Virus record (IMG/VR): IMGVR_UViG_3300028840_007197
Coordinates: 30,907 to 94,906 of that record
DNA length: 64,000 bases
Direction: 5' to 3' (one strand)
From: a virus
Shown here: piece by piece, positions 9,129-36,576 of the stretch
How the letters are laid out: every line of letters begins with the position of its first letter
Numbering within the stretch: the stretch's first letter is position 1
Notes under the pieces: model-generated
The model's database searches: none
The model's input: only the letters and a program-made list of their open reading frames with translations
Told to the model about the DNA's origin: nothing
Program-made: the position numbers and the translations under genes

Positions 9129-10040
9129 TTAGCCCTTGAAATGGGGCTTAAACCTCACCTGCATGGCATCAAAACCGTCAGATTCGGAGGAGGGCTGACC
9201 TTTTTGCCATCTTTGGAGAATATTAAAACCGCCGCTGTATCCCGTGTCTGATTTATGGCCCGTCTGAGATTCCTGAAACTTCTTCATTATATCGAAACCA
9301 CCAGAAAAGGGCTCAGAGAGGCTTCGTTCCTTAGCCATACGGACTATCTGTCGGTAGCGGAAAACACTATCATCCATAGCCCATTGATGCCCGTTAGAGC
9401 ATATCATACCATAATAAACACTCGACCACTTTGAGGCTATCTTCGATTTATCACAGCCACAGACAGGGCATCGTGTATCCGGAAGGGGTTCCCCTGCTAT
9501 AGAGGCGTACATCGTTCGACCCTGTTTTTCAGTCTCTTCAGCGGGAACACCTTTTTTTCCGACCATCTTTCCAAAAGGATTTTTCATCTGGCCCTTTTTC
9601 GAGACCACGACATAGAAATCTTTATCGAATATCTGCTTGAACTTCTCACTGGAATATGTGTTCCCTAGGTCAGATTTATAGGTGTTCCGATAGATTGTGG
9701 GTGCCTTGTGGCCAGGTGTAAGGTCAGGACGGTCACCGGTCTTAAACAGTTTTGGGAGGAACCTGTGGACGTCCTCAGGTATAATATCGATGTCTTTATC
9801 CTTGTACAGAACCCCCTCAGAATCTGATACCACCACCATCTCGGGTTCCTGTATCAAGCCATCAGAGCTCAAGTGGGCATTATAGGCGTAATACTCTTCT
9901 TCCCCCTTTTTTTTGAAGAGGATACCATACTCTACCCACTGAAAATTACCCTGACCTAACTCCTCGGTATTCAGTGTCTTATGGTCAGGATTGGCCCAGA
10001 AAGATATGGATACCTTAACGGGATCGTATTTCTCAGCCAC
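9129..10040 (-). CDS. zinc-ribbon protein with three C-terminal GGFDI-type motifs
   Basis: I do not recognise this 303-aa protein. It has a zinc ribbon (CPVCGCDKSK and later CSNGHQW, near residues 190-225). Its last 59 residues repeat a short motif three times: GGFDIMKKFQ (about 247), GGFNILQRWQ (about 270) and DGFDAMQVRF (about 288). Such repeats often act as peptide docking sites. The start is GTG, preceded by GAGGAG, and overlaps the stop of the upstream tail gene by 1 nt (TAGTG). It therefore belongs to the tail operon by transcription although it borders the replication genes. It could be a minor virion protein or an assembly factor. Confidence 0.75.
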   Translation of the reverse strand: MAEKYDPVKVSISFWANPDHKTLNTEELGQGNFQWVEYGILFKKKGEEEYYAYNAHLSSDGLIQEPEMVVVSDSEGVLYKDKDIDIIPEDVHRFLPKLFKTGDRPDLTPGHKAPTIYRNTYKSDLGNTYSSEKFKQIFDKDFYVVVSKKGQMKNPFGKMVGKKGVPAEETEKQGRTMYASIAGEPLPDTRCPVCGCDKSKIASKWSSVYYGMICSNGHQWAMDDSVFRYRQIVRMAKERSLSEPFSGGFDIMKKFQESQTGHKSDTGYSGGFNILQRWQKGQPSSESDGFDAMQVRFKPHFKG

Positions 10041-13000
10041 TAGGACAGTCTCCTCATAGTTATAGGAATTCCAGGGAGCTCGAAAATATCTACAACATCG
10101 TTATTAGACCTGTGATCAAAATAATTGTGGAGAGAGGTGTTATCCACCTCGCTACCGGCAACCATCAGATACAGGCGTCCATCATTGTCCTTATCCAGAA
10201 TATACGATTGGAACGTCTTCTGATACTGGCCAGAGGAGTCAAGCTTCTCATATTTCAGGCCGAGGTTACCGCGACCCAGAGGTGCATCAGGAATATGAAT
10301 AGTAGACCGACCCCGGTCTGCAACATTCTGTCCAAGGATAACCGTATTCGCCGTCGTATCAGAAATATCCTGGACTCTATTCACGATGCGGGTCTCCAGA
10401 ACAGGATACTTGTCGGTAACAGCCGTAGATATTTCTTCATTCATCCCACTGGCATCAGCGGCGCTGTTGAGTGCCGGAAGCCTATCCAGAATATTAGCGG
10501 GTGAGAAGAACGGCTGGTCCTTAGCAACGATAGTATAAGCTGCATAAACAGTGGAATCTTTAGGTTTTTGCGAGAGAAACAGGGTACTATCATCATATAC
10601 TTCACTGATAACATATTCAGTCTCAGAATCCGAATTAAGCTTAATCAGATACCCACTCTTAACATTAGAAGCCCACTCAGTGTTTTGACCAAGGACTGAA
10701 GTGGTATCCTCGTCGAAAAGAGCCAGACCCTGAGCATAGGTATAATCGGTGATAGTACCGCTACCAGACGTGGTTACCAGAGCCGGTCCTATGGCCTCTA
10801 TACGACCGGTAACTGTAGAATCGAGCCAGCCCTGATAGGGCGTAGTCTCATAGAAGCAGGTATATCCTTCAGAATCACTTATAGCGCTTTTTCTTAATAC
10901 AGGGACTGATATGGCATTCCCTGCTGATGGCGCTGATGAGAACTCTATGACGAGCTCTGTTTTATGTGATGCATCAGAAAGTTTAAGATTATTGGTAACG
11001 AGGGGTTCTCTTGCTGACCCATTATAAGCGTAGCATGTACCATTCTCATTACTGTAGCTCGCTATTGCAATGAATCGCCCCGTGGTATCAACTTTAAACA
11101 CAGTACGGCCACTACCAGCGGGCTCACGGGGTGTCAGCTCAATCATCTCGTAAGTTTCAGTAATTGCTCTGCCCTGTTTATTTGTTTCAAAGAACTTAGT
11201 TCCGAGATACAAATCGAATTCAACATGCTGACTTGAGGAAGCTGTCGTATCAAGGGCCACGTTATACTGACTCGCAGTTCTGGTAATAGTACCAAGACTC
11301 CTTGTTGTTGAGTCTATCTTGGCGTCAGCTATCCCGAGCACACTATAGTCCTCAATGGACCGAGGAATGATATAGTTAGTAGACCCTGACCCCGGTACAT
11401 GATAAGTCATCCTATGGCCAAAATCATACAGCTCATCAAATCTTGCTCCTCTGTTCGAGAGCGTATTGAAATGAGTTGTATCACCAATAATAACGGGGGC
11501 AGCCGTTCTTACACGGATGTCACTATCCACAGAAGCTATAGGAGTTGTAGAGTCCTCTTTTCTGAACTCTAGAATCCTATTCGGAACATGAGTCAGCCCG
11601 TTTGGCCCTGCAGGCATACTAATCGTATACTCAACAGTAATGGGCAACGATGTTCCAATAATTGTTCCTGAGTTTATTGTAAATATGACGTCATCTGCGG
11701 GTAGTGCAGTATAAGAAATATTACCGGTCAGGCTCCCATGACTTGAGGTATATATAGCATCAACAGACGTTACCTGAGAACCTTCAGGGTAAGAGTCGGA
11801 GGGTAAATCTATCTCGAACTGATTCGTAGCAGCCCAGGCTGCTCCAGGAGTTCCCGTAATCTTGTCATTGACTGTTTTAGCTATAAGAGAGTCGGGCTGT
11901 GTGATTTCTGCATTGGAGAATATTCTGCGGACTCCATCACCCTCAGCAATCTTAGTTGACCCGACTTTATCTACGTTGCTCACTGCATCCGCTTGAACAA
12001 GGACCTTTCCATAATGGTCCTCACCAAGGGTAGACTTACCCATTTTTGTCTGAAGCTTACCGCTGATGAGCTTTTTAAACCCATCCTCACACAGCTCCTT
12101 ATAGTTATCCTGAACGGATACCCTACGACGAAGATCCAGAATGTCACTGGCCACAATCCAGTCATTATAGAGATTATCAGGCCTATCTGAAGCGTATCCT
12201 TCCAAATAATTCGCCAGGGTCTTTGCGGATCCGTTAGAACGGGTTTCAGGATTATAAATGCCCGTATTACGACGATGAATAGCAAACATAGGTATGGCAT
12301 AGGTATATCCATCTGCCGTCCCCAAGGTTTCCTGAGCAGCTGCATCACCGGAACCGGCTCTCCACAGACCAATATCTCCAGGAACTGGAGAGAAATAAGC
12401 CTGGACGCAGGTACTGAGAGGAGAGCTGAGGGGCCCTTGAACAAAAACCCTATTCGGATCAAAGCCGTCGGGGTAAGTTTCCAGGTCCGTATAAGCGACT
12501 CGAATCCTATACTGTATCTGTACTCTTAAAGAGGTCTCAATATTGATAGCTGGGTCGATAAGGTCATTGGACGGATTGATACCACCATAGAGAATATTGC
12601 CGTACTTATATACGGTATCTGAGGGCTCTAGTACCTTTTTCCATACCTCAAGGAATACGAAATCTATTCTTGAACCGATAGTAGGAGGTTCATCGAGAAT
12701 AATAACGTTATTCTCATCTGTTGAATTTGTCCCCTGAACTAGAATTCTCCAGCCGTTAACCCATGCCACAAGGGCCTGTGTCTCGACACCCTTATCGAGG
12801 GCTATGAGCTTGAATGTATTATGAACATACCCTGATGAAGAGAGTGTATCGCCAGCCCGGCATTGAGACTCTGTTACGCCCCCCTTTATCGAGCCGACAA
12901 GAGACCAGCCGCTCGGATTCAAGAAACGACTCATCAATCGGTCGTTCTCAGCAGAGACCATCCCGGTTAGATTGAGCTCTGAGGAGAGGGGCGGTTTTCT

Positions 13001-13081
13001 CTTCTGATAAACCACCTGCTCAAAACCACGGTTTGTCGGGTCCAGAACTCTGGTCTGGTTGGGACCTAGATAATCTGACAT
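10040..13081 (-). CDS. large modular tail/baseplate protein, paralogue of the propeller protein
   Basis: This is a 1013-aa virion protein. Its N-terminal half is clearly paralogous to the 1337-aa gene at 19266. Shared segments include VVYQKRKPPLSSELNL versus VVFQKGKPPLDSELNL, FLEVWKKVL versus FLEVWRALL, RVQIQYRIRV versus RVQVQYRIRV, YAIPMFAIHRRNTGIYN versus YAIPMFFVARRNSGIYN, and DILDLRR versus DILDVRR. Near residues 783-850 it carries a 'GLALFDEDTTSVLGQNTEW' type module also found in the 1781-aa protein. An upstream in-frame GTG exists at 13111, but AGGAGA lies 7 nt before the ATG at 13081, so I use that start. The reading frame overlaps the preceding gene by 16 nt. A fibre or baseplate-rim role is inferred. 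Confidence 0.8.
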   Translation of the reverse strand: MSDYLGPNQTRVLDPTNRGFEQVVYQKRKPPLSSELNLTGMVSAENDRLMSRFLNPSGWSLVGSIKGGVTESQCRAGDTLSSSGYVHNTFKLIALDKGVETQALVAWVNGWRILVQGTNSTDENNVIILDEPPTIGSRIDFVFLEVWKKVLEPSDTVYKYGNILYGGINPSNDLIDPAINIETSLRVQIQYRIRVAYTDLETYPDGFDPNRVFVQGPLSSPLSTCVQAYFSPVPGDIGLWRAGSGDAAAQETLGTADGYTYAIPMFAIHRRNTGIYNPETRSNGSAKTLANYLEGYASDRPDNLYNDWIVASDILDLRRRVSVQDNYKELCEDGFKKLISGKLQTKMGKSTLGEDHYGKVLVQADAVSNVDKVGSTKIAEGDGVRRIFSNAEITQPDSLIAKTVNDKITGTPGAAWAATNQFEIDLPSDSYPEGSQVTSVDAIYTSSHGSLTGNISYTALPADDVIFTINSGTIIGTSLPITVEYTISMPAGPNGLTHVPNRILEFRKEDSTTPIASVDSDIRVRTAAPVIIGDTTHFNTLSNRGARFDELYDFGHRMTYHVPGSGSTNYIIPRSIEDYSVLGIADAKIDSTTRSLGTITRTASQYNVALDTTASSSQHVEFDLYLGTKFFETNKQGRAITETYEMIELTPREPAGSGRTVFKVDTTGRFIAIASYSNENGTCYAYNGSAREPLVTNNLKLSDASHKTELVIEFSSAPSAGNAISVPVLRKSAISDSEGYTCFYETTPYQGWLDSTVTGRIEAIGPALVTTSGSGTITDYTYAQGLALFDEDTTSVLGQNTEWASNVKSGYLIKLNSDSETEYVISEVYDDSTLFLSQKPKDSTVYAAYTIVAKDQPFFSPANILDRLPALNSAADASGMNEEISTAVTDKYPVLETRIVNRVQDISDTTANTVILGQNVADRGRSTIHIPDAPLGRGNLGLKYEKLDSSGQYQKTFQSYILDKDNDGRLYLMVAGSEVDNTSLHNYFDHRSNNDVVDIFELPGIPITMRRLS

Positions 13082-14043
13082 TTCGGATCTCCTATTGTTC
13101 TCACTTTCCACACAATCAGCGGCTCAATAACGTGCGGCTCAATGCGCGAACAGAGCATCAAATTTTTTATCAGTGTCTCGTAAGCATAGGTAAAATCGTA
13201 AAAAACGCTCGAATTAAAAAACCACGTTGTTGGGAAACCCGTACACTTCCTGAACATCCTGTCTATATCATAAAGTGGGTAAAGTTTAACAGAAAGGTCA
13301 GATAGTGCTGTTTTAATTTTATTATAGTCTTTAATGAATTCAGTAGGAACAGAGGAAGCTACTTCCTCAGGAAATATCTTAGGGTCCTTAATGATCTTTG
13401 CAATATGTCTGACCTTCTGAGGGACCCGCTCTAAAGACCCCTCCATATCTTCGATCGTATCAGCTGACCGGTCTAGGTCCGCTATTATTGATGATAGTAT
13501 AGACTTTATAGTCTTACTTCCACACATGGTATCAGGAAACACAGTTCTCAAGAGGCTACTCGACAGCGAACAAACTTCGTCCGTATTAGCTGAAAACGAC
13601 CTCATCAATTTATCATAATCGCTAAGGGTCGTCATGAATTCAGACTTCTTAGACCCGTTTACCTCTCTAGGAGTGTTCTCAGTCTGCTCGTCGGGCTTCA
13701 ATTCCAGCATCAATATTTCGACATCTTTATGGTTATCCCTGATAACCTTAAGAATTTCATCTACGGCACTATCTGAAGCTAGATGAGCATTAACCCCTTT
13801 GTTCTTCTTGGTCAGATTCCCTAGAATATGACTTATTACTGGCACTGCCCTGATGTATTCCTTATTGGTCATTGGACCGGCCAAAATTATTCCATTGAGA
13901 GAAGCAAATAGATATCTTCCCTCTTTCGTGACCGACAAAGAGTTCTTACCTACCTTAAAATCAGCGAGGAGCTTACCTTTTTTAGCAAACATCCCGGCCA
14001 TTTTTATATCATTCTTCGGATATTCCTTTGACACGCTCGTCAT
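13066..14043 (-). CDS. hypothetical tail-module protein, 325 aa
   Basis: No family is recognised. The first half looks mixed alpha/beta. The second half is helical with charged stretches and two Cys (CGSK, MLCSR) that do not form an obvious zinc site. The ATG at 14043 lies inside the end of the preceding gene (35-nt overlap), and its own end overlaps the next gene. This close packing argues for translational coupling and a real gene. It sits in a run of four small genes between two groups of large baseplate/fibre proteins, so an assembly chaperone or small structural subunit is plausible. Confidence 0.7.
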   Translation of the reverse strand: MTSVSKEYPKNDIKMAGMFAKKGKLLADFKVGKNSLSVTKEGRYLFASLNGIILAGPMTNKEYIRAVPVISHILGNLTKKNKGVNAHLASDSAVDEILKVIRDNHKDVEILMLELKPDEQTENTPREVNGSKKSEFMTTLSDYDKLMRSFSANTDEVCSLSSSLLRTVFPDTMCGSKTIKSILSSIIADLDRSADTIEDMEGSLERVPQKVRHIAKIIKDPKIFPEEVASSVPTEFIKDYNKIKTALSDLSVKLYPLYDIDRMFRKCTGFPTTWFFNSSVFYDFTYAYETLIKNLMLCSRIEPHVIEPLIVWKVRTIGDPKCQII

Positions 14044-14359: not shown

Positions 14360-14679
14360 CACAATTTCTCTAAGAAAATCCTCTTTTTCAATACATCTAT
14401 ATAATTTTTACCTACTGAACAGATTCTATTATATATGTCATCAGCTACCTCTTTATAAATTTCCTGATTGTATTTAAGAAAGGTAGCCATATTGAAACAC
14501 CAGTCTCCAACATCTTTTGACGCTTTTTCAAACTCTTCCGGTTCTTCCGGAAACATCTCAAAGGGTCCATATGAGTGATTAGACTTCCTCCAAACCCCCA
14601 TCAACTCATTAGCGGCTTTTACCCTATTAGAAAAAGCATTGAGTCGCCTATTAAATCCAATCCATGAATCGTGAACCAT
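14359..14679 (-). CDS. hypothetical helical protein, 106 aa
   Basis: A mostly helical 106-aa protein with aromatic and acidic stretches (GPFEMFPEEPEEF) and no recognised domain. The start codon overlaps the stop of the 195-aa gene by 1 nt and the stop overlaps the next start, so it is embedded in a coupled cluster. Size and position suit a small chaperone or adaptor for the neighbouring fibre proteins. This is inference only. Confidence 0.65.
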   Translation of the reverse strand: MVHDSWIGFNRRLNAFSNRVKAANELMGVWRKSNHSYGPFEMFPEEPEEFEKASKDVGDWCFNMATFLKYNQEIYKEVADDIYNRICSVGKNYIDVLKKRIFLEKL

Positions 14680-15266
14680 TAAGCTGTAATTCTAAATATT
14701 ATACTCATAGTCATGGAATTAGTCTTGTTAATAACAGGAAAAGTCCTGAAATTAACCATGGTCCCACTATCAGCAAGATCCGTAGCGTCTCCCCCGAACA
14801 TACCCATCTCAACCAGGGGTCCTACCGCCTCGGTTTCAGCGAACGTAGCCGTAAAATCTACCACGTTTGTGGGTACAGTCGTTGGGTCACCCGTATCGGG
14901 GTCAATGAAACTTACATCATTCGTTGTATAAGCCTTACGGGCAATTTCATTATTGAGCTCAGTCTGAGTAGCTACGGGCTGTGGAGGGTTCTGTAGGTTC
15001 CATCCAGATGCACCAGTCCCAACAGCCAAATATGAGATTCCTGCATCAGGCTCATGATTATCCTTGAGGAGTCGGGCAATAAGAATGGAAGCAGTATTTA
15101 CGATCAGGTTGTGATTATGGCGCTCTTCAATAATCTCACCCGTTGCCGAGTCTCTCAGAATAATCCAGTACTGACCATGAAGGGGCCGGGTCTTCTCCTC
15201 ATACTTTGCGCGGTATCCACCCATAAAGCCTTCATAGGCCCTCTTCAGATTCTCAATGAAGATCAT
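14679..15266 (-). CDS. putative tail-fibre/baseplate structural protein, 195 aa
   Basis: The pattern is common in phage tail proteins: an N-terminal helix, then a beta-rich body with HNLIVNTASILIARLL followed by ISYLAVGTG, and an end rich in Thr, Phe and Val strands with MFGGDA. Proteins of this type often lie next to fibres or receptor-binding parts. The ATG at 15266 has GGAGC 6 nt upstream. The gene is the first of a transcription unit and follows a candidate late promoter at 15314-15323. The exact place in the virion is not known. Confidence 0.65.
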   Translation of the reverse strand: MIFIENLKRAYEGFMGGYRAKYEEKTRPLHGQYWIILRDSATGEIIEERHNHNLIVNTASILIARLLKDNHEPDAGISYLAVGTGASGWNLQNPPQPVATQTELNNEIARKAYTTNDVSFIDPDTGDPTTVPTNVVDFTATFAETEAVGPLVEMGMFGGDATDLADSGTMVNFRTFPVINKTNSMTMSIIFRITA

Positions 15267-15355: not shown

Positions 15356-18300
15356 CTATAAAGGCATCATTTCCGTGACCTTTAGGACACGGTAACTCCT
15401 ATCCGGGAGCAACTCCTTAAATGTCTTTTTCCGGTAACGAACTACTTCATCATTCATGAATGAGTAATCTACCATGTACTTCAGAGGGTCCTTAGAATGA
15501 GAAGAGTTTAGAACCTTTACCAGAGCATTAGGGAACGTATCAGGTGAACTCAATTCATCTTGAGATGCTTCATAAGTCTCGAAAACAGGGCCAGAGAATA
15601 TATGCTCCTCAATCTGATAAGTCGTCTTATTGAAATAGACTATCTTTGTTCCCAACCCATAATCATCAAGATTATTCACGTACTCATTATACTGAGCATC
15701 GATTCTAATCTTAATTGGGTCCGGACAAGCAGATGCAAAGACATAGTCATCGTCCAATATTCTTGAATAATAAGGGTCTATCAGTTCTATTGTGGTGGTA
15801 TTAATGACTTTATAACTAAAAGTTACAGGGGGACTAATCTCATATATGAGCTCTATCTCATCCCCGGCATTAAGAAGTCCGTTTAGACTACTACCTCTCC
15901 AGATTAATTCGTTTCCATACACATAGAAATCATAACCATCCTGCTGAGAGGTTCCATTCACAATATTAAGAACTACATTTGTTTTCCTTCTCAGGTAATT
16001 TGAGAGGAAAACACCCCCGTTATCAGCCTGCTCCTGAGTCAGTATTATATGCTCAAAAACCAGATAAGATGGCATGTTCAACTGAATGACACCATTTACG
16101 GGATCAATCGATGAAATAATGCCCTCTAAGACCGTACCGCCTATTTTTACCACCACATCACCGGCATCTGCATAGGTGGTCTCATTTTTCATGAGCGGAA
16201 GAGTCGGAAAATCAATTATCCCCTGGTCTGAGGACATTTTCATAGTAGCTGGCAGATAATATGTCGGAGTATCCGTCTCAAGTTCAGATGCAGCCTCATA
16301 GGAAATGAGAGCCAGACCAGTACTCTCTGTTTCTCTTAGGATGAAATTATCCCTGAGCTTCTTTGAGGGCACTCTAAGATTAGGCGATCCAATTAATGAA
16401 CCTGGAATGGATGCGGTTACCTCATCATATTTAACAGTATCTGTAACTAGCCACGGGTCGCATTCTTTGAGCTTGGGAATATCTTCCTGATATCTAAACT
16501 GGAAAATCGGTGTCGCTGAATCACATAGGGAACTTAAATGGACACTCTCTCCATTATCCCTGAATTCCTTCAGAAGCAGGTCCGAATAGAGAAGAGGATG
16601 ACGATGCTGCCTGATATCCTGAAGTTTTCTCTGATATACGAGTCCCGGTTGATACGCGAAAGTCTTCTGGAATGGAGGCGTACCTTCTCTTAGCTTCAGG
16701 ACAGGATCCAGGCCATTATCCAGGTATTGGTCATCCAGAACGATGTTAGAACTAGTATCGTACAGAAACTCTGGGCTGAAGAAAAGATTAAGATGATTAA
16801 GAGAATCCTGTTGATTCGCTATAGAAGCCCTTGTAGCAGGCTTCTGATAATTATTGAGCCTGAGAGTATCGGGAGAGTTCAGAACGGACGTATGATGCAG
16901 GAGATATGTCCTGAACCGATATCCTATCTCAACCGGATTAGCTCTTGGTATGGACGCTGTACCTGAGGAATCATTTAGGGCATCATCAAGTAGGAAATTC
17001 TCGTAATCAAGATACCTTTCAATATCATCGAGAAGTGCAGGATACTGATAGTTCAAACCGGCATAATAACCAAATTCGAGACTATCACCTATGGCAGGAA
17101 CTCTACCCAGTTCGGAATCTACCCAGAATTGAGTAGTGTCATAAAGGGTTATATGACCAAAGAGGGGCCTTATTGACCTTACCGCATCTATGACCTGAGT
17201 ACCATCGACATAGATGCTTACATCAGATGTTCCTGCGAGAGTTCCGGACCCATCACCCGTGACCAAAGGCGTATGGGACATCTGCCAATGGGCTAATCCG
17301 AAGAGCAAATCTGTTGAAGAGCTATAGACCGTACCATCGGATAAATAGTTATAATCGAATCCAATTTCATCACAGATAGCGGGAGAATGACCTACTGTTG
17401 AGTCCCAGTATGTTGTGCTATCAGTCAGAGTAACGTTAGCATTACTAGCATCTACAGAAATAACGGAGTCACTAAGAGAGGTACCGTCAAAATTAACGAG
17501 TACATCAGAGATTGTTGCAGGATTACCAGAACTATCCGTAAGGGGAGCATGCGGCAGAGTTAATACATAACTATCCCCGTACCAGAAGGAGTCAAAGACT
17601 TCATCTCTTCCCCATGGAAGGCTTAACCTAGGTGAATCTAATCTCTGACCTATTTGGAAGGAAGTAGATGTAGTCTTTTCGCTGGTAGCATCACAATCCT
17701 TACGAAGGTCCTCATAATAAGGCTGTAAAAGGTCCTGCACCCATCTATCACAGATGGTAGTAGGGGTAGTTTTTATTTGAAGGGGGAATCGCCCATTCGG
17801 GTCCATCACCTTCTTCACGAACTCCTGGAAGGCCGGTTTCCTTATAGTATCGAGATAGAACCTGGAAACCGATGAAGGCAGGACCCCAGGAGGCATATAC
17901 CAGAACTGAAAATCGCCAGGAATCTGAATCCAGGATATCCTAACCCACTGACCAATCCTGAGTTGATCGAACCTTATTCTTTTTCCGAGGGAATTAAATA
18001 TTACAGTCCCATTTACACCTGGCTCTGTAATGACCCTCGTCCCATCAGTGAGAAACAGGGTCAGATAGTCATTATGGAGAGAATCAATCCTCCCCGTGGC
18101 CCCCTGTGAAGTAGTAAGTACTGATATTTGTCTTGCCAGATATGTTGGTTCACCTAAAGGGCTGTAATCGTATACAGGTACACATCCACCACCAGTATCA
18201 CCATAAATGAGGTCGTGTATTTTATTAACATCTATCTGCTCGGTCCAAATAAGCCTGGTATCATAAAGGACGTGAGCAGGCCTGATTAGATTTATAAAGA

Positions 18301-18883
18301 AATCAAGATTAGTAAGGATATCATTGATATTCTTACCTGAATTAAGGAGGTCGTCGACAAAAACGTCAACGACCATTTTATTAGTATCTATCACTGAATA
18401 AGCACTATTAGGCTTTCGTGCCTCAAGATAAAGCTCACGTATATTTATATCAATACCCGTGAACTTTTCAGCAGTGCTTTCGATATTATCTTTTTTACTT
18501 CCAATGAGATAGGCGTCTTTCAGAGATATCAGATAATCCCTGAAAGACTCATCATTGTAGTTTTGTGGTGCGATCTGTTCTTTAAGAAATAGACGGTCAC
18601 CAAGTATCTGCTGGAGATATTCTATACGAGTCTGGGTATAAACCTTATCATTATTTATTGCATCATTGCTATAATGCATCCTTGCAAATTCACGGGCAAG
18701 GACATTAAAAAGTATGGATACATTAGTATTGGTATCTTTCGGATAGTTACTTGGAAGGAGACCTATAAGCGCGGTTAGGATCTCAGAAGCCCGACCATAG
18801 AGGTCTGCCCTGTAAGACTGATTGTCCGGAAAGCGCTTTCTGCCCAGTTCTTCCGGATCAGGAATATAGGGTCCTATAGCCAC
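15356..18883 (-). CDS. very large baseplate wedge-type protein, 1175 aa
   Basis: The first roughly 230 residues resemble tail protein I / gp7-type baseplate proteins: a helical N-terminus (LTALIGLLPSNYP, REFARMH), a block describing repeats of ELYLEAR and DVFVDD, and FINLIRPAHVLYDTRLIW, where 'RPAH' is typical. The remainder is a chain of beta modules. Near residues 940-1015 it has one copy of the ILTQEQ...GDEIELIYE module that occurs four times in the 1423-aa fibre at 58861. The start is GTG with AGGAGA about 5 nt upstream. It follows the 126-aa gene by 8 nt and lies two genes after baseplate J, as expected for a wedge component. Confidence 0.7.
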   Translation of the reverse strand: MAIGPYIPDPEELGRKRFPDNQSYRADLYGRASEILTALIGLLPSNYPKDTNTNVSILFNVLAREFARMHYSNDAINNDKVYTQTRIEYLQQILGDRLFLKEQIAPQNYNDESFRDYLISLKDAYLIGSKKDNIESTAEKFTGIDINIRELYLEARKPNSAYSVIDTNKMVVDVFVDDLLNSGKNINDILTNLDFFINLIRPAHVLYDTRLIWTEQIDVNKIHDLIYGDTGGGCVPVYDYSPLGEPTYLARQISVLTTSQGATGRIDSLHNDYLTLFLTDGTRVITEPGVNGTVIFNSLGKRIRFDQLRIGQWVRISWIQIPGDFQFWYMPPGVLPSSVSRFYLDTIRKPAFQEFVKKVMDPNGRFPLQIKTTPTTICDRWVQDLLQPYYEDLRKDCDATSEKTTSTSFQIGQRLDSPRLSLPWGRDEVFDSFWYGDSYVLTLPHAPLTDSSGNPATISDVLVNFDGTSLSDSVISVDASNANVTLTDSTTYWDSTVGHSPAICDEIGFDYNYLSDGTVYSSSTDLLFGLAHWQMSHTPLVTGDGSGTLAGTSDVSIYVDGTQVIDAVRSIRPLFGHITLYDTTQFWVDSELGRVPAIGDSLEFGYYAGLNYQYPALLDDIERYLDYENFLLDDALNDSSGTASIPRANPVEIGYRFRTYLLHHTSVLNSPDTLRLNNYQKPATRASIANQQDSLNHLNLFFSPEFLYDTSSNIVLDDQYLDNGLDPVLKLREGTPPFQKTFAYQPGLVYQRKLQDIRQHRHPLLYSDLLLKEFRDNGESVHLSSLCDSATPIFQFRYQEDIPKLKECDPWLVTDTVKYDEVTASIPGSLIGSPNLRVPSKKLRDNFILRETESTGLALISYEAASELETDTPTYYLPATMKMSSDQGIIDFPTLPLMKNETTYADAGDVVVKIGGTVLEGIISSIDPVNGVIQLNMPSYLVFEHIILTQEQADNGGVFLSNYLRRKTNVVLNIVNGTSQQDGYDFYVYGNELIWRGSSLNGLLNAGDEIELIYEISPPVTFSYKVINTTTIELIDPYYSRILDDDYVFASACPDPIKIRIDAQYNEYVNNLDDYGLGTKIVYFNKTTYQIEEHIFSGPVFETYEASQDELSSPDTFPNALVKVLNSSHSKDPLKYMVDYSFMNDEVVRYRKKTFKELLPDRSYRVLKVTEMMPL

Positions 18884-18891
18884 GGGCTCTC

Positions 18892-19272
18892 CTATTTAGA
18901 AGGGCTCATTGAGATCAGGTTTATTCCAGTTGCGTCTGGCGTATAGAACGTGAACAATCCTAGTTCATGCACGGGAGAGTAAGGATTTGTTGAATCAGTT
19001 GGAAACGTCGGATAATCAAGCTCTCTTACCGAACTTGCCGTAGCTGATGTTACGGCGGTTGCATCAGCAGCTCCATTGAAATTCTGCAGAAACAACATAG
19101 AGTACTGATATTTGCTGGAGTCTCCAGAAAAATCAGTCATCTGGGAGAACTGTATCTGACCGCCATTATACGGTATAAGCGTATTACCCAACCGCGCCAG
19201 ACCAGGCATGATGGATACAGTAGAATCAGATACTTCAAGCTGAAACTGTATATGATCTGATGTGGTCAGCAT
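18892..19272 (-). CDS. small virion protein, 126 aa
   Basis: A beta-rich protein with no recognised family. It has short strands separated by Ser/Thr/Asp turns and a small Ala/Thr-rich stretch in the middle. It overlaps the end of the 1337-aa gene by 7 nt and is separated from the 1175-aa gene by 8 nt. It is likely a minor baseplate subunit or a clamp for the flanking large proteins. Confidence 0.65.
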   Translation of the reverse strand: MLTTSDHIQFQLEVSDSTVSIMPGLARLGNTLIPYNGGQIQFSQMTDFSGDSSKYQYSMLFLQNFNGAADATAVTSATASSVRELDYPTFPTDSTNPYSPVHELGLFTFYTPDATGINLISMSPSK

Positions 19273-22200
19273 AGTGTAATCCTGCTTAAGGGTTTATTCT
19301 GAATACGATACACCGCTAGGGCATCGGTCGAGCCCACTTGATACCCTACGGAATTATTCTTTTCAGTGATATATGTACGTGAGAAAATAACCATTAGATA
19401 TTCGCCGTTTTTGAAGATGTTATTGTTCTCATCACAGACTCTGGCAAGGACGGGCATATAAACTTTCCTAGGAACAGACAGCCCCATGCCCTCAGTAGAG
19501 AACTCGAATTCCCTTGAACAGATGCTATAGAATGTTCTTCCTAGGCTATCTACTGAGGGAGCCGAAAGAGTAAAAGATTCTCCAAAACTTCCGGGCACAT
19601 ACACGGGGAGAGAGACCATGCCCGTATCCACCGAGAGGTTATTAAAGCGTAGGGACTCATTGTTATATAGAAGATTTTCTTCCAACAAAATATCATTGAT
19701 AGGAATCTGCTCTATTGGTGTCGTGTAGGGTTGACCAGCCACCCCACCTGTAGAGCCATTGTTCGATACGTATATCCTGTCCCCACCATCAACAGTTGTG
19801 AGGGTAACAGTCGTAGGAAGAGATTGGACAGTTTGATAGGGAAGGAAATTATATGCTATCAGAAGAGCATCATTATTTGAATCGATCGGATAGGGTAGGA
19901 TAAGGTCTTGAACAAGAACCTGTATCCAGACTGTTCCGGGTGATGTCGCCGGATAAGTAACCGTGATGGTATCAGTACCAAAACCAGTTACGGTACATTG
20001 GGTCATTACGGCGTTACTTATATCTGACCCTATCCAGCAAACAGGACTATTCAAGGACTGCGTTGTTTCAACACTCGAAATTCCAAGAATAACCTTGTTA
20101 GGCATGTTTATTTGTGCTGATGTAGTAGAAACAGTAGTATCATCTTTAAAGATAGAACTGCAGAAAGTATTTATGCCCTTTGTGGAGGCAACAAAATTTA
20201 CCGATGCTCCGTTTCTGACGTTTATAACTATATCCTTGGTTACATAAGTAATTATTTCTATAGACTGGCCCTCAAGGAAAGAGAACCCGGTAGCCGGTGT
20301 TATCTTTATACCTGTCACATCAGAGCCGGATGTCGTAAACGATACTGAGCTTATTTTGTATGAGAACGATGAAATAACATTATTAATCTTAGACACAGTT
20401 AGGATATTGTATTTGGTGTCATCAGTATAGGGGCCTATTTCAGGGCTTAGAACAAGAGCAGTCCCATCCAAATCAGAGCTTGTTATTTTCATGAAATAAT
20501 GAAGCTCTACATTAGACGCTCTCGACTGCTGAGCTGTATCAGTATAAGCTTTTGCTGGATACACCAAAGCATAGTTGTTATACCCTGAAACTTCAGAGGC
20601 CCAGGACTCTATGACTCTCGATGTCTCTGAGCTCAGGACACCCTGATAGTAATAGGGAGCAGACCCTGACCCACTCACATTTTTTACCAGTTTCGGTGAA
20701 GACGGTATGTAACTCAGAGACACCGAACTCCCCGCCACATATTTTCCAGATAACAGATATCCGTTTACCGGTGAATCCGTTTTCACATCACTATCAAAAA
20801 CAAATGTAACCGTATCTGTTCCAAGACCTTCCCAGTATCCCGGAACAGGTTTCCCACTATATGAGGCATCCCCACTTACATAAGTGGCAGAATAATGGAC
20901 GGGATTGGTAGAGAAAATACCTGTAACAGGACCTAAAGACTGCTGAGTAGGTACCGGACTCGTTGAAAGAGATATTGACGATGTATTGAAAGATGCCTCG
21001 GAAGTAATAAGACCTGAAACGGCCCCCGTGAGGTCCGTATTTAACTCAGTACCACCCTCAGAACCAGAACCCGAAACTCTGTCTATATGCAGCAATTCGG
21101 TTCCATACCGGTCGCCACCATCAGATAGGCGTCCCATAACCGTTTTGAGTTCATTTTTCGACATCTTGTCGAAGGTTGAACTCAGGAGCTCTTTTGTAGA
21201 AGGAATAGTTATTATTCTTCTAACATCGAGGATATCCGAATCGACGACCTCTGTAGCAGTGAGAAGGTCGGGCCTGATAAAAGAAGTGTTCCTTTGGTTA
21301 GAGCCATTAGGATTAGTTGAGGCGTTATAGATCCCTGAATTTCTTCTGGCTACAAAAAACATGGGTATAGCATAACAGTACCCATCAACAGTATTTTCGC
21401 ATTTAGCTCTCCAGAGTCCGTAGTCACCATTTATCGGACCCATATTCTCGTAGGAGAATTTTGCCGTCGTATTCGGGCCCAAACCATATACCGTTGAGGA
21501 TAATCCCGCCTCAGGATTAAAATTGGGATCTGCCCCGCTTATTACTCTAATTCTGTACTGAACCTGTACCCTTTTTGTGGTCTCAATACGAGCATCAGGA
21601 TGTATAGAATTATCTTCTAGGAATACATCACTCTCGACATTCCCCTCGTAAAAAACCCTTTGAACCTGACGGATGAAGGTTTCAGTTTGCTGTTCCTCCC
21701 ATGTGATACCACTATCTTCGGTGTTCCGTATTACTGAATTAGCACCAACAAGCCAACCTTTATACTGGTCGAAGAAAGAAATGCCATATATGTCATATGC
21801 TGTTTGTGGGTCCTGAGGAACCCATTTAGCCCCTATATCATCGGTATAAAGTACTCGGCCTGAATCACCAACCGCCCATGCTTTTCCATTGAAGACGGCG
21901 CAGTCTCTCTTATACCAGTATGAAATTTTAACCGTATCATTTACCTTCGGAGCTAATGCAAGTACCACCGCTCCCGTTGTACCATTAATGCTATCAACAG
22001 CCACCTGGACATTATTTACCGTAACCGTTACCATACTCGGGTCATTGGTAACAGTTCCCCTTCCGTCTCCAACAGTTATAGGGGTATTCGCAACCGTGAA
22101 ATTCTTATTAGTTCCATCAAGCTGTGAGCTGACTTCCTCATTTAATACATGGGCATCAAGAGTAGGAGCCATTGAGACGGATCTGAGATTATCAGTAATG

Positions 22201-23279
22201 GAAGTATAAGTCGAATTTATGTATACATTACCGGACTGTGACACCCATGAAGCGCCACCATCTGAGGTCCTCAGAATAGTTCCATTATCTCCAACAGCAA
22301 ACCCATAACTGAGGTCATACATATGGATGCCATTGAGATTCTGGGTCGTATTACTAACCTGTGCAACCCAATGGTCACCACCATCAGTGGTCCTTATAAT
22401 TGTCCCTGAGTCTCCAACAGCCCACCCAACCTGATTATCATAAAAAAAGACCTTATTGAGATTAGCAGTAACCCCGCTAGTCTTCTCTACCCATGATACG
22501 CCGTTGCTGGTTTTTACGATAGTACCGGCATTACCAACGGCCCATGCCAGAAGCTGGCTGTAGGCGCATATTGAATTAAGATCTTCAGACACAACACTTG
22601 TAAGAGTGGTCCATTTCTGACCTCCAGAAGAGGACCGTGCAATGAAACCATCCTCCCCGACAACCCACCCTATGGATGCAGTAATAAAGTATATGCCTTT
22701 AAGTACTTTAGTAGTATCGATGAGCTGCGTTGACCATACCTGACCAGCATTCTCCGTTTTTAAAACGAGCCCGTTCTGACCACAAACCCACCCTATTGAG
22801 TCACTGTACATGTAGATGTCATAGAGCGAATCAATCACCGTGGCCGGATCAGGTTTGTTTGTACTCGTATCAGGATCAAGAAGAGCTCTCCAAACTTCAA
22901 GGAACACCCCATTAAGAATATTACCGCTCGATGGAGGAGTTTTGAGATCGATAAGATTAAGATTAGTGGCAGTCGTACCGGTATTGGTAACATGAACCAC
23001 CATCCCATTAACGTTGGCTATTTCAGGCTTTGGGTTAGTTGTACTCTGGGTATAGAATTTATTGGCCAAGGACCTATCCGTGTGGATAGGATACATTGAT
23101 ATCCACCCGGAGGGAAGAAATGATGCCTGTCTCCTATTGATGATTCCTTGAAGCTGTTGAACAAGATTCAGCTCGGAATCAAGAGGGGGCTTGCCCTTCT
23201 GGAAGACCACCGTATCATAGTTGTAGCCCTGGTCCTCATAAACGTAGGAGACATCAGGTCCCAAATTATCATGAGACAT
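19266..23279 (-). CDS. giant tail protein with inserted seven-bladed YCF48-type beta-propeller
   Basis: The 1337-aa protein shares its scaffold (residues 1-148 and about 540-760) with the paralogue at 10040. Between these parts lies a propeller (about 150-535) of seven YCF48/BNR-like blades, each with a 'GWAVGDSGTIIRTTDGG..W' pattern (for example GWVVGEDG near 204, GWAVGDSG near 285, GFAVGDNG near 326, AWAVGDSG near 467). Blade 6 is itself split by a module of about 79 residues (379-457, NEEVSSQLDGTNKNF...VKISYWYK) that also occurs in the sheath and neck proteins. The C-terminal 570 residues are beta-rich. AGGAGTGATAG precedes the ATG. Such propellers bind proteins or glycans, so a host-contact role is plausible. 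Confidence 0.85.
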   Translation of the reverse strand: MSHDNLGPDVSYVYEDQGYNYDTVVFQKGKPPLDSELNLVQQLQGIINRRQASFLPSGWISMYPIHTDRSLANKFYTQSTTNPKPEIANVNGMVVHVTNTGTTATNLNLIDLKTPPSSGNILNGVFLEVWRALLDPDTSTNKPDPATVIDSLYDIYMYSDSIGWVCGQNGLVLKTENAGQVWSTQLIDTTKVLKGIYFITASIGWVVGEDGFIARSSSGGQKWTTLTSVVSEDLNSICAYSQLLAWAVGNAGTIVKTSNGVSWVEKTSGVTANLNKVFFYDNQVGWAVGDSGTIIRTTDGGDHWVAQVSNTTQNLNGIHMYDLSYGFAVGDNGTILRTSDGGASWVSQSGNVYINSTYTSITDNLRSVSMAPTLDAHVLNEEVSSQLDGTNKNFTVANTPITVGDGRGTVTNDPSMVTVTVNNVQVAVDSINGTTGAVVLALAPKVNDTVKISYWYKRDCAVFNGKAWAVGDSGRVLYTDDIGAKWVPQDPQTAYDIYGISFFDQYKGWLVGANSVIRNTEDSGITWEEQQTETFIRQVQRVFYEGNVESDVFLEDNSIHPDARIETTKRVQVQYRIRVISGADPNFNPEAGLSSTVYGLGPNTTAKFSYENMGPINGDYGLWRAKCENTVDGYCYAIPMFFVARRNSGIYNASTNPNGSNQRNTSFIRPDLLTATEVVDSDILDVRRIITIPSTKELLSSTFDKMSKNELKTVMGRLSDGGDRYGTELLHIDRVSGSGSEGGTELNTDLTGAVSGLITSEASFNTSSISLSTSPVPTQQSLGPVTGIFSTNPVHYSATYVSGDASYSGKPVPGYWEGLGTDTVTFVFDSDVKTDSPVNGYLLSGKYVAGSSVSLSYIPSSPKLVKNVSGSGSAPYYYQGVLSSETSRVIESWASEVSGYNNYALVYPAKAYTDTAQQSRASNVELHYFMKITSSDLDGTALVLSPEIGPYTDDTKYNILTVSKINNVISSFSYKISSVSFTTSGSDVTGIKITPATGFSFLEGQSIEIITYVTKDIVINVRNGASVNFVASTKGINTFCSSIFKDDTTVSTTSAQINMPNKVILGISSVETTQSLNSPVCWIGSDISNAVMTQCTVTGFGTDTITVTYPATSPGTVWIQVLVQDLILPYPIDSNNDALLIAYNFLPYQTVQSLPTTVTLTTVDGGDRIYVSNNGSTGGVAGQPYTTPIEQIPINDILLEENLLYNNESLRFNNLSVDTGMVSLPVYVPGSFGESFTLSAPSVDSLGRTFYSICSREFEFSTEGMGLSVPRKVYMPVLARVCDENNNIFKNGEYLMVIFSRTYITEKNNSVGYQVGSTDALAVYRIQNKPLSRITLC

Positions 23280-23289
23280 CTATCACTCC

Positions 23290-26200
23290 TTAGAATGCTT
23301 GTCTGCTAAGGTCTCTCGGAGTATCATAGCTTATCGAGAAGGACCCGACATTGAGATACTCTATGGAATTAACGTTGATGTCGTTGGATCCGGTCTCTCC
23401 ATACACGTAGTATGCTACTGAGTATTCCTTTTTCTCCGGTATATCACCGTCTTTGGTACTCACTATGATTTTACCATCTGACTGTATATAAGCACGTCCG
23501 GGCCCGTCTGATACTTCAAGGGGATCATCCTGAAGGACCAGAGGAAGATTATCTTCGAATACTCCCCTAAACATGTTCTCAGGACCGCCCTTATCAACGG
23601 TCTTATAGCTAAGGACGGAAACAGTAGATATATATGCCGTACTTGATCCTTCATTATAGATATCGAACTGTGTTTTTCCTACATCATCCCGTATTATCAT
23701 CGACCCATCTGCCTTGGTCATTCTCAAGAACGGAAGAACCACATAATCAACATCATCTATTCCCTTTATCACATGGTCTATATCACTCTGCGTAAGGGAC
23801 ACGCCTATTCCTAGCTGAGTGACAAAATTAGAGACTGCCGTTCGGATTTTAGAAGTAAGAAGGTTATAATTCGTCACCCCTGATTTAGGAACGACCGTTA
23901 TCACGAAGTCTACATCATTCTCGATAGCCTGTTTCACAATAGTATCAGCACAGGCATGCTTCATCTTATCTACTTGTTCTTGAACCGTTGAGAGCAGATA
24001 ATTGGTTGTATAAACCACAGCGAAGTTCTCTATGGCCGTATAGCTAATAAGTACGGTCTGACCATTCAGTATACTACCGCTCTCGATTAACCTAATATTT
24101 GTAGCCGATGTATCGGTTCCGGCAATGACCTGATAATCGACATTCTCTATAAATGTGACTGTCTTGGTACTATTCTTTATGACTATCGAAGTCGTATCTA
24201 CCCCATAATATGCGAGGGGTTCATCAGTCCCTATTATCATAACGTGGGACTCGTCAGTTATTTCCTGGAACTCGGTTAAGGGTAGATTATTAGCGAACTT
24301 AATCCTTATCCCATCCTGAGCTATAGTAGAGTTCCCATCTTCAAGAGGATCCTGTAACCTGACCAATTCATAGTTATCGGTTGTCAGAGGACCAGAAAGC
24401 TGACCTGTTACGGATACGATCTCCAGAACGGGCTGATTACTCAGTATGAATACATCTGAGCTCCTGTATTTATAATCGACTGTAATAATATCATTGGTGG
24501 CCAAACCTATTGAAACATTCACGGGTCTGGTTTCATCAAGGTCTATAACCTTTCCGTCACCAATTATCTGCAGATTCGTGAGGTCATAATCCGCCAACCG
24601 GGTAGCATTATGAACCTTTGATACCTCGAAAATTGGCGTATGCGCTGTCACTCTGGTATTCTGGGTCTGAAATTGGAATGATACTGCGTTTATGACCGTA
24701 AATCTCTCATCCTGCTGTGTGCCGCCATTGGCCTGAACGCTCTCAAAAGAAAAAGCTATCTGGTCGGTAATCTGTTTACTCCTGCTTCCCTCAACATATA
24801 CATCCACTTTTCCACCAACATGAGTCAGACGAAGGGGGTCCCAATCCCGCCTCATTAAAGGATCACCAGCCTTCTCTATTCTGACATTTCTGACGCCAGA
24901 TACGCCTATAGACGTTTTCGCATAGCCGCCTTCGGTACCAGTATCGGTGAAAAACGCCAGCTGTATTCTGCTGGCCATGTCATGGTTGGATTCTTCATCT
25001 GACCCAAAACTGATCGGATTACCGTTTTCAACAGAAAAATCTGAGTCTGCACCGCTTACTATGGTCCTAATAGTTTGAGAATCAGTATTACCACTTTCAC
25101 CCGCATCTTCAGATTCTACATCTAGTATCAACTCATATCTTTGAAGAGCTGCGTTATAGTAGATATCCCGATTAGAAAACTCAAGGATCCTGGATGTTGT
25201 TGTTCTATATGACTGTGCCGGGATTCCAGAATCCAGGTCACCTATAGTAGAGACAATACATCCTTCATAAACGTACATATCCCGGATAGGAGGAGTCTCA
25301 ACATAGAACGTAACCTGACCCGTAGCCCTCTCTGCATCTCTCCTGACTATGTTTACGTTAGATCCAAGTTTATCGAACTGTTCATCAATAAGGGTCTGTA
25401 CATCGTTAGGGTCACTAATATTCAGAGCTACTTGAAGGGCCCTCTTCTGTGTAGAAGATGTAACAGGGTCACTGATACCATCTCCGTCGGCGTCATCAAA
25501 ATCGAGCAGGGAGGTAACACCAAGAGACCGAGACATGAAATCCTGGATAACGTAGACCCTCGCTTGTTCTTCGGATATTGGGTCTAGTATGTCCCTCAAC
25601 GCCGTTCCGGGCTTGGTGTCTGCCCCAGCATTCCCGGTAAGGATTTCCCTTGAATAGGTCAGAATGATGTCAGTTTGAGTTCTGGAAGGAAGGTCCCTTA
25701 TTCCCGTTGTGATGGTAATAGGCGACCCCTCAAGCTCTGCGGAATACGAGCTCTCGGTCTGAACCCCCAATACCGAATCATATACAATGGCAGTAGCTAC
25801 GAAAAAGAAACTGTTGTCTTCGGTAAAAGGGACATTCTCGATAAGTCCCTCGGACACCAGTCGGTTATACGCTGTTTCATCAAAAAAAGTAGAATAGTAA
25901 TCTGTTACATTAACTTCCTCTATGGTTGTCGTAGTCCTTATATTTCCAACGGTATCAACACTTGTGCTTAACTGCCTTGTGTTTTCTTCTTGAGAGCTAG
26001 GTTCAGTCACGAGCTCAGTATTAATTTTTGCATAGGTTCTATTTATGCCGCCACTTTGTGTAGATACATAGAAGTTGTAACCAATAACCTGTTGTTCAGT
26101 ACTACCTGAACAGAGTATCTCGACTTTATCCTGGTATTGTTTTAGTTTAATACCGGTGGGCTGAGAAACAGTAGTAGATACCTGTGAATCTATAAGAGTT

Positions 26201-26460
26201 ACGACTATTATAGCGGGATTACTCGCTAAACCTGTCGTTTTATCGATAGCAGTAACCTGTAAGATATTCTGGCCAACTGTAAGAGTTCCAGTCCAAGCCC
26301 AGGCAATCTCCCCGGAAGTATAAGATACTCCAGATACAGACCCGTTCACCTTTATCTGGGCCGTGTCAGCAGAGGTGGTCCCTGAAATAGTCTGGACCTC
26401 TGTATCGGTCGTATAATCTACTCCACCCGAAGGCAGAAGTATAACGGGTGCTGGTATCAC
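23290..26460 (-). CDS. baseplate J-like wedge protein with N-terminal Ig-like domains
   Basis: This 1056-aa protein has the core of the baseplate J (Mu gp47/T4 gp6-like) family from about residue 250: a helical lead-in with PGTALRDIL, RRDAERATGQVTFYV, an ISFGSDEESNHDMASRI segment and GVSGVRNVRIEKAGDP. It forms the wedge ring that starts sheath contraction. In front are an Ig-like domain (about 10-95) and an FN3-like strand set. Near residues 608-670 it carries an 'NATRLADYDL...DIITVDYKY' module shared with the 1781-aa protein. The start is GTG with GGAGG 8 nt upstream and lies 3 nt after the previous stop. It is about twice the size of typical relatives because of the added modules. Confidence 0.85.
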   Translation of the reverse strand: MIPAPVILLPSGGVDYTTDTEVQTISGTTSADTAQIKVNGSVSGVSYTSGEIAWAWTGTLTVGQNILQVTAIDKTTGLASNPAIIVVTLIDSQVSTTVSQPTGIKLKQYQDKVEILCSGSTEQQVIGYNFYVSTQSGGINRTYAKINTELVTEPSSQEENTRQLSTSVDTVGNIRTTTTIEEVNVTDYYSTFFDETAYNRLVSEGLIENVPFTEDNSFFFVATAIVYDSVLGVQTESSYSAELEGSPITITTGIRDLPSRTQTDIILTYSREILTGNAGADTKPGTALRDILDPISEEQARVYVIQDFMSRSLGVTSLLDFDDADGDGISDPVTSSTQKRALQVALNISDPNDVQTLIDEQFDKLGSNVNIVRRDAERATGQVTFYVETPPIRDMYVYEGCIVSTIGDLDSGIPAQSYRTTTSRILEFSNRDIYYNAALQRYELILDVESEDAGESGNTDSQTIRTIVSGADSDFSVENGNPISFGSDEESNHDMASRIQLAFFTDTGTEGGYAKTSIGVSGVRNVRIEKAGDPLMRRDWDPLRLTHVGGKVDVYVEGSRSKQITDQIAFSFESVQANGGTQQDERFTVINAVSFQFQTQNTRVTAHTPIFEVSKVHNATRLADYDLTNLQIIGDGKVIDLDETRPVNVSIGLATNDIITVDYKYRSSDVFILSNQPVLEIVSVTGQLSGPLTTDNYELVRLQDPLEDGNSTIAQDGIRIKFANNLPLTEFQEITDESHVMIIGTDEPLAYYGVDTTSIVIKNSTKTVTFIENVDYQVIAGTDTSATNIRLIESGSILNGQTVLISYTAIENFAVVYTTNYLLSTVQEQVDKMKHACADTIVKQAIENDVDFVITVVPKSGVTNYNLLTSKIRTAVSNFVTQLGIGVSLTQSDIDHVIKGIDDVDYVVLPFLRMTKADGSMIIRDDVGKTQFDIYNEGSSTAYISTVSVLSYKTVDKGGPENMFRGVFEDNLPLVLQDDPLEVSDGPGRAYIQSDGKIIVSTKDGDIPEKKEYSVAYYVYGETGSNDINVNSIEYLNVGSFSISYDTPRDLSRQAF

Positions 26461-35967: not shown

Positions 35968-36576
35968 TCAAATAAGCTTACCGTTTCCGGGTGCCGTGGG
36001 AATGGTAACGGGACCTACTGGAGGGCCCGCAGCGGCTCCTATGCAGGTCGTAGTTATCCTTCCCGATGTCATTATATGATTACATATTCCAGTAGCCATA
36101 GCAGAAGCAAGAGACTTGAGCTTTGTCCCACTTATGACTCTAGCTGATAACTGGGCCATTATTATAGCTTCAAGAGCCTTAGGAACAAGATTTAGTATTT
36201 TCCCATTTCCTGATCCGGGACCTGCGCCTATTACAACCCCCTGAGCTATCGCCGTTTTCAGGGCCTGAACCACGCCAAATGAAACAGAATTGAATAATTT
36301 TGAAAGGTCCCTCCCTGAGAGGCCTAAAGCGGAAGCTTTCAAAACCATCAGCTTACTCATGGTTGATGGGTTAAGTCCTGATATCCTCCCGGTAAATGTT
36401 CCGGAGCCGGGACCGAGAGCATTGTTTATAGACGTGATGAATGAAGCCGATAGGACATAAGACGCAACGGCGGACGATATTCCAGAAGTAAGAGAGTTTA
36501 GTTTCGTCCCACTCAGGGTGAGACTGGCTCCCTTAGCCATCATTAGCCCCGACATTGCCGTTGGAACTATAGGCAT
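35968..36576 (-). CDS. three-repeat protein next to the spike gene, putative spike tip
   Basis: The 202-aa protein consists of three degenerate repeats of about 62 residues. Each has a P..M..LM helix, an LSGxxLxxL helix, a hydrophobic helix and a glycine-rich end: LGPGSGTFTGRI, AGPGSGNGKIL and AGPPVGPVTIP. It is not a canonical PAAR sequence. It does sit exactly where PAAR-like tips are found, 1 nt from the end of the gp5/VgrG-like spike gene (TGATG overlap). A single chain with three repeats could cap a trimeric spike with pseudo-threefold symmetry, as PAAR proteins do. That role is inference. Confidence 0.6.
   Translation of the reverse strand: MPIVPTAMSGLMMAKGASLTLSGTKLNSLTSGISSAVASYVLSASFITSINNALGPGSGTFTGRISGLNPSTMSKLMVLKASALGLSGRDLSKLFNSVSFGVVQALKTAIAQGVVIGAGPGSGNGKILNLVPKALEAIIMAQLSARVISGTKLKSLASAMATGICNHIMTSGRITTTCIGAAAGPPVGPVTIPTAPGNGKLI

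Follow-up and report, generated by a model that had tools for sequence, protein, structure and literature searches.

Gene organization and tail-gene neighbourhood

The window, the whole 64,000-nucleotide stretch of DNA analysed here, comes from a 94.9 kb virus record. G001, a close relative, is a phage record of 470 kb, so the source of the window probably represents a fragment from a huge phage. The gene under study runs on the minus strand from 23279 to 19266 and encodes 1337 residues; the plus strand over 19266–23279 holds no comparable frame. Full-length orthologues are intact on many separate contigs (for example G001, G002, G004 and G005). The gene and its parts are as follows.

19266–23279, minus strand: whole gene, 1337 residues, comprising scaffold, propeller, nested module and C-terminal part
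22854–23279, minus strand: N-terminal half of the scaffold, residues 1–142, with the FLEVW strand at its end (BLASTP to the paralogue, 2e-16; alignment A2)
21675–22838, minus strand: YCF48-like propeller, predicted seven-bladed, residues 148–535, nested module included (PF14870, 5e-24; blade profile; model; Foldseek)
21900–22154, minus strand: nested module, residues 376–460, in blade 6 between strands A and B (phmmer to the proteins at 49553–52336 and 52950–54365; model strands)
21042–21674, minus strand: second half of the scaffold, residues 536–746, from RVQVQYRIRV to DILDVRR (BLASTP to the paralogue, 2e-31)
19269–21041, minus strand: C-terminal part, residues 747–1337 (absent from the paralogue; the most variable part among orthologues, 39% mean identity)

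The gene is flanked by baseplate genes.

23290–26460, minus strand: upstream neighbour, probably a J/gp6-like baseplate wedge protein (putative name; conserved position)
15356–18883, minus strand: downstream neighbour, a gp48/gpI-like baseplate protein (phrog_1160 baseplate protein, 5e-8; conserved position)
14679–15266, minus strand: BW3TFN baseplate wedge/fibre-network component (PF25691, 4e-8, above the cut-off; conserved position)

The position between the J-like and gpI-like genes is conserved across orthologous loci, and the J-like gene adjoins the propeller gene in nearly every orthologous locus that extends far enough upstream. A Pfam search of this J-like neighbour gave no match. Among the other tail genes of the window, the sheath-like protein (49553–52336) has a sub-threshold Pfam match only (6e-4), and the matches of the tape-measure-like (42506–45919) and spike-like (36576–38522) proteins are weak. 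Downstream of these tail genes, the minus strand at 2215–4686 encodes a DNA polymerase of family A that has a 3'-5' exonuclease domain. Three contigs binned as Altiarchaeales and KSB1 genomes (L090, L091 and L089) bear these phage tail genes; they may be phage contigs placed in the wrong bin, or they may hint at the hosts.

A scaffold shared with an insert-free paralogue

A second protein in the window carries the same scaffold with no insert.

10040–13111, minus strand: paralogue, same scaffold, insert-free (BLASTP; scaffold tree)
12560–12604, minus strand: unbroken link in the paralogue, residues 170–184, equivalent to the propeller insertion site (BLASTP; alignment A2)

The two proteins align by BLASTP in two blocks around the insert, which bears out the common scaffold proposed for them by the earlier sequence-only reading. 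Residues 4–142 of the propeller protein match residues 13–169 of the paralogue (32%, 2e-16), and residues 559–746 match residues 185–388 (39%, 2e-31). Between the blocks the paralogue has a link of about 16 residues, whereas the propeller protein has about 416. The hairpin is thus opened at this junction by about 390 residues of YCF48-like blades, as had been proposed. In the paralogue the propeller does not split the junction, but the FLEVW strand does not run directly on to RVQIQYRIRV as the same reading held, since about 25 shared residues intervene. The junction is sharper still in G009's insert-free relative ('SPGGTTSKPTAT/EIYKFGN' vs 'DPDTSTNKPDPAT/.../QRVFYEGN'). Only the first 390 residues or so are common to both proteins; the tails of about 600 residues have diverged.

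The propeller protein contains the gp211-like scaffold blocks KPP.L..ELN, FLEVW, ETT.RVQ.QYRIR, DGY.YAIPM, RRN and DI.D.RR (alignments A1, A2 and A4). An unbroken hairpin after FLEVW is a usual but non-defining trait of the scaffold, and the propeller protein lacks it, having the insert of about 390 residues instead. The scaffold gene is found on hundreds of viral contigs, and its usual place is after the BW3TFN gene. DUF4815 (PF16075) is matched by one of 18 scaffold members, at an E-value of only 0.14, and a scaffold profile search against the PDB found no solved relative.

The propeller domain

Residues 148–535 match Pfam PSII_BNR/YCF48 (PF14870) with 85.5 bits against a gathering cut-off of 27. 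A blade profile built from relatives only, with the window protein left out, finds exactly seven blades at residues 150–188, 193–228, 233–270, 273–311, 313–352, 466–489 and 495–533. The same profile gives one match in all over 200 shuffles, at 5.2 bits, and zero matches in 40 other proteins of the window. This count agrees with the seven blade motifs read earlier from the sequence, as do the Foldseek matches to seven-bladed propellers.

Structure prediction, which had been suggested as the check, was run on the propeller protein. With a single sequence, AlphaFold2 reaches a pLDDT of 33.5 for residues 1–593; with alignment A2 (24 sequences), the mean pLDDT is 81.5 and the predicted blades lie at about 90–97. 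The model is weak at residues 1–54 and at the end of the fragment. DSSP assigns about four strands per blade, and the strand 121–134 immediately precedes the insert. The overall pTM is 0.57, so the model leaves the relative orientation of propeller, module and scaffold unfixed. In Foldseek against the PDB, YCF48 is the top match (E 5e-13, target TM 0.70–0.72), and designed seven-bladed rings are also matched (7bie, target TM 0.82). The best match among viral models is a cyanophage baseplate wedge initiator. These fold matches support a closed seven-bladed ring for residues 148–535. The sequence, the alignment-based model and Foldseek together agree with the nested order put forward earlier, in which the scaffold holds a seven-bladed propeller and the propeller holds a module.

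Other YCF48-like blades were seen in related material. In the G001 relative (470 kb), a second propeller of six to seven blades lies in L132 (record positions 222000–234000, frame from 5038), near the N-terminus of a 2338-residue collagen-repeat protein resembling a tail fibre. At L168:4755–8699, about 13 BNR/YCF48-like blades are joined to a KAP-type P-loop NTPase, and L169 has blade matches at the same coordinates.

The module nested in blade 6

In the model, strand 365–371 is strand A of blade 6; the module follows, and strands B–D come after it at 466–489. The module recurs in other tail proteins of the window.

51905–52144, minus strand: module copy 1 in the sheath-like protein 49553–52336 (i-E 3.7e-24)
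51659–51889, minus strand: module copy 2 in the sheath-like protein (i-E 2.8e-14)
51164–51394, minus strand: module copy 3 in the sheath-like protein (i-E 5.8e-7)
53835–54074, minus strand: module copy in the protein 52950–54365 (i-E 3.6e-15)

A faint trace is also present in the 15356–18883 protein. The earlier observation of a recurrent module interrupting the sixth blade therefore stands, with the module at about 85 residues, three copies in the sheath-like protein and one in its neighbour, the 52950–54365 protein.

Relatives of the propeller protein were reached with alignment queries; the whole protein as query found no match in the viral contigs. Blade 6 is interrupted in all orthologues of the propeller clade, by two types of insert that a fully supported branch of the tree separates. 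The module subclade has 13 tree rows, the window included, and one relative, L147, has two module copies in blade 6. The sister subclade (9 rows) has a different insert of about 115–136 residues, which by sequence appears to occupy the same A–B loop. Decoration of the propeller by a phage module, as first proposed, is thus confirmed for blade 6, but across the clade the module is only one of two alternative inserts at that place. An hhalign comparison, a weak test with 4–8 sequences per group, shows no similarity among the module, its alternative in blade 6 and the other insert of the scaffold hairpin.

Probable insertion history

Insert lengths at the scaffold hairpin fall into three classes of about 0, 97–129 and 392–456 residues (124 rows, some of them overlapping copies). 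We calculated an unrooted tree of 94 rows from scaffold columns only. The 8 propeller rows form one branch (SH-aLRT 100), as do the 12 rows with a domain of about 100–130 residues (SH-aLRT 98), and the insert label changes twice in all. The latter domain is unrelated to the propeller and sits at the same hairpin in a second scaffold clade, which comprises L022, L026, L036, L054, L055, L068, L073, L076, L080 and L093–L095. Domains of this type are also present close to the C-terminus in other scaffold proteins, for example at residues 1473–1573 of the L059 protein. Between the RRN block and RPDGL the scaffold has a further loop, in which LR745208 and G009 (L005, L129) have an insert of about 100 residues.

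As the tree is unrooted, polarity is taken from gene order, for which there are four outgroup loci only. In these (L019, L032, L093 and L094), the J-like gene adjoins the gpI-like gene with a gap of up to about 400 bases; the scaffold gene is absent between them and is placed after BW3TFN. The propeller clade has an extra scaffold copy between J and gpI, propeller-bearing every time. Because this position is empty in the outgroup loci and filled by a propeller copy in the clade, the propeller-bearing copy is most likely the derived one, judging from sequence and synteny. Tree and gene order therefore favour the original proposal of a propeller dropped into a scaffold protein over loss from the paralogue. 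No scaffold copy lacking the propeller was found at the J–gpI position, so the gain of the copy and the insertion of the propeller are inseparable in time.

The reverse history, with an ancestral propeller lost in the paralogue and in all other scaffolds, is compatible with the number of changes on an unrooted tree taken alone. We consider it very unlikely, as the insert-free scaffolds are far more diverse (phage G gp211, Tunturi_5 gp247 and LR745208 are among them), another insert, unrelated to the propeller, arises at the same site among insert-free relatives, and the J–gpI position is empty in all four outgroup loci showing both genes. The source records are metagenomic, which might suggest that misassembly or a chimera produced the nested order. 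Over 20 distinct relatives, found on separate contigs, have this order in an open frame, and the explanation is hardly credible.

Insertion into the scaffold remains the preferred history, and it would have proceeded as follows. Gene order and the tree suggest that the scaffold gene, normally located after BW3TFN, acquired an additional copy that lies between the J-like and the gpI-like gene. A seven-bladed YCF48-like propeller would then have entered the loop behind the conserved FLEVW strand, as indicated by the alignment, the tree and the model; since a propeller begins and ends at adjacent points, the hairpin that received it need not have been disrupted. The A–B loop of blade 6 would later have captured another domain (alignment and tree), namely the small beta module of the sheath-like protein in one lineage and the unrelated domain of about 115–136 residues in the sister lineage. 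The 1337-residue product is, with high probability, a structural protein from the baseplate region of a huge myophage, made by such serial domain insertion.

Conservation and possible function

Within the module clade, the two scaffold halves have mean identities of 58% and 60%, blades 1–5 of 55%, the module of 52% and the C-terminal part of 39%. The propeller, at 55% vs 58–60% for the scaffold, is not the fast-changing part of the protein and gives no hint of the rapid evolution that a host-range determinant would be expected to show. Its fully conserved positions are Gly, Trp, a few hydrophobic residues and S349; the propeller alignment contains no conserved polar cluster and no invariant Asp/Glu pair. 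The least conserved parts are the loops between blades and between the A and B strands. The label of a receptor-type propeller, given to it earlier, is not sustained: the closest fold is the assembly factor YCF48, the conserved positions are structural ones, and the rate of change in the propeller is about as low as in the scaffold.

We infer that the propeller is most likely a rigid binding platform on the baseplate wedge, with the nested domain extending its surface, and that this putative platform most likely serves to contact the host surface or to dock another protein of the tail or fibres, with an enzymatic role less likely. An enzyme delivered by the baseplate (a glycan depolymerase or sialidase-like protein) might be suspected from the GH74 xyloglucanases lower in the Foldseek list and from Asp-box-like TxDGGxxW motifs in several blades. 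Asp boxes are structural, however, and the lack of an invariant Asp/Glu pair among the conserved positions argues against catalysis, so we regard this role as unlikely. YCF48 itself is not an enzyme. A stronger competitor, which we would place a little below even chances, is a platform for docking or assembly of baseplate or fibre proteins that does not face the host. YCF48, a platform for photosystem II subunits, is the best match in both fold and sequence, the propeller is about as conserved as the scaffold, and its gene stands beside wedge genes and BW3TFN. On the other hand, the inter-blade and A–B loops are the least conserved parts, and the A–B loop of blade 6 tolerates unrelated inserts, which fits an exposed surface.

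Comparison with known systems

YCF48/HCF136 (PF14870; PDB entries 2xbg and 5ojr) is also seven-bladed and is the best match by Pfam, PDB sequence search and Foldseek. It is a free-standing photosystem II assembly factor, whereas the propeller described here is a domain within a phage scaffold with an interrupted blade 6. A role in photosystem II assembly is not expected for a phage structural gene. Bacillus phage G gp211 and Tunturiibacter phage Tunturi_5 gp247 share the scaffold from residue 1 to about 390 and have the hairpin without a domain; their annotations are just gp211 or 'tail fiber protein'. The cyanophage baseplate wedge initiators of S-CAM9 and S-SSM7 have YCF48-like blades in a wedge protein with gp25 and wedge genes adjacent. 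Their scaffold is a different one (3884 residues in S-CAM9), the blades are near the C-terminus and our profile finds only about five.

Propellers are known in other phage baseplates. In the giant myophage phiKZ, gp131C (PDB entry 4GBF) is a propeller of seven blades and unproven function, placed at the periphery of the baseplate and described as a C-terminal domain rather than a loop insertion (PMC4901313). The sequence searches did not turn it up, and it is absent among the 50 Foldseek matches listed. The propeller of Staphylococcus phage phi11 is five-bladed and is part of a trimeric protein dedicated to receptor binding, which has a putative pocket for GlcNAc (PMC4901313). In integrins, which are eukaryotic, the alpha I domain is inserted in a seven-bladed propeller between blades 2 and 3, and a single domain type is involved (PMC12422189). 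Added beta domains are common in tail sheath proteins of large phages; there they are in the sheath, while here the module is nested within a propeller (PMC9230969). No paper treating YCF48 together with phage and baseplate was found in the open literature that was searched. Propellers in phage baseplates, insertions into propellers and sheath add-ons are thus already known, and what is new is this nested variant with unusually good evolutionary replicates.

Tentatively, and at clearly less than even odds, the scaffold hairpin and the blade-6 loop may be acceptor sites, one stacked on the other, that capture unrelated domains time and again. If so, giant phages would have on their baseplate a plug-in system of two levels by which the contacts of the baseplate can be changed. 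One family provides a natural insertion series, with the hairpin empty, with a domain of about 100–130 residues or with a propeller, and a second-level series in which the propeller loop has one module, two modules or an unrelated domain. Such series make it possible to study directly how insertion enlarges the tails of giant phages, and how a propeller that is closed can accommodate a domain within one of its blades.
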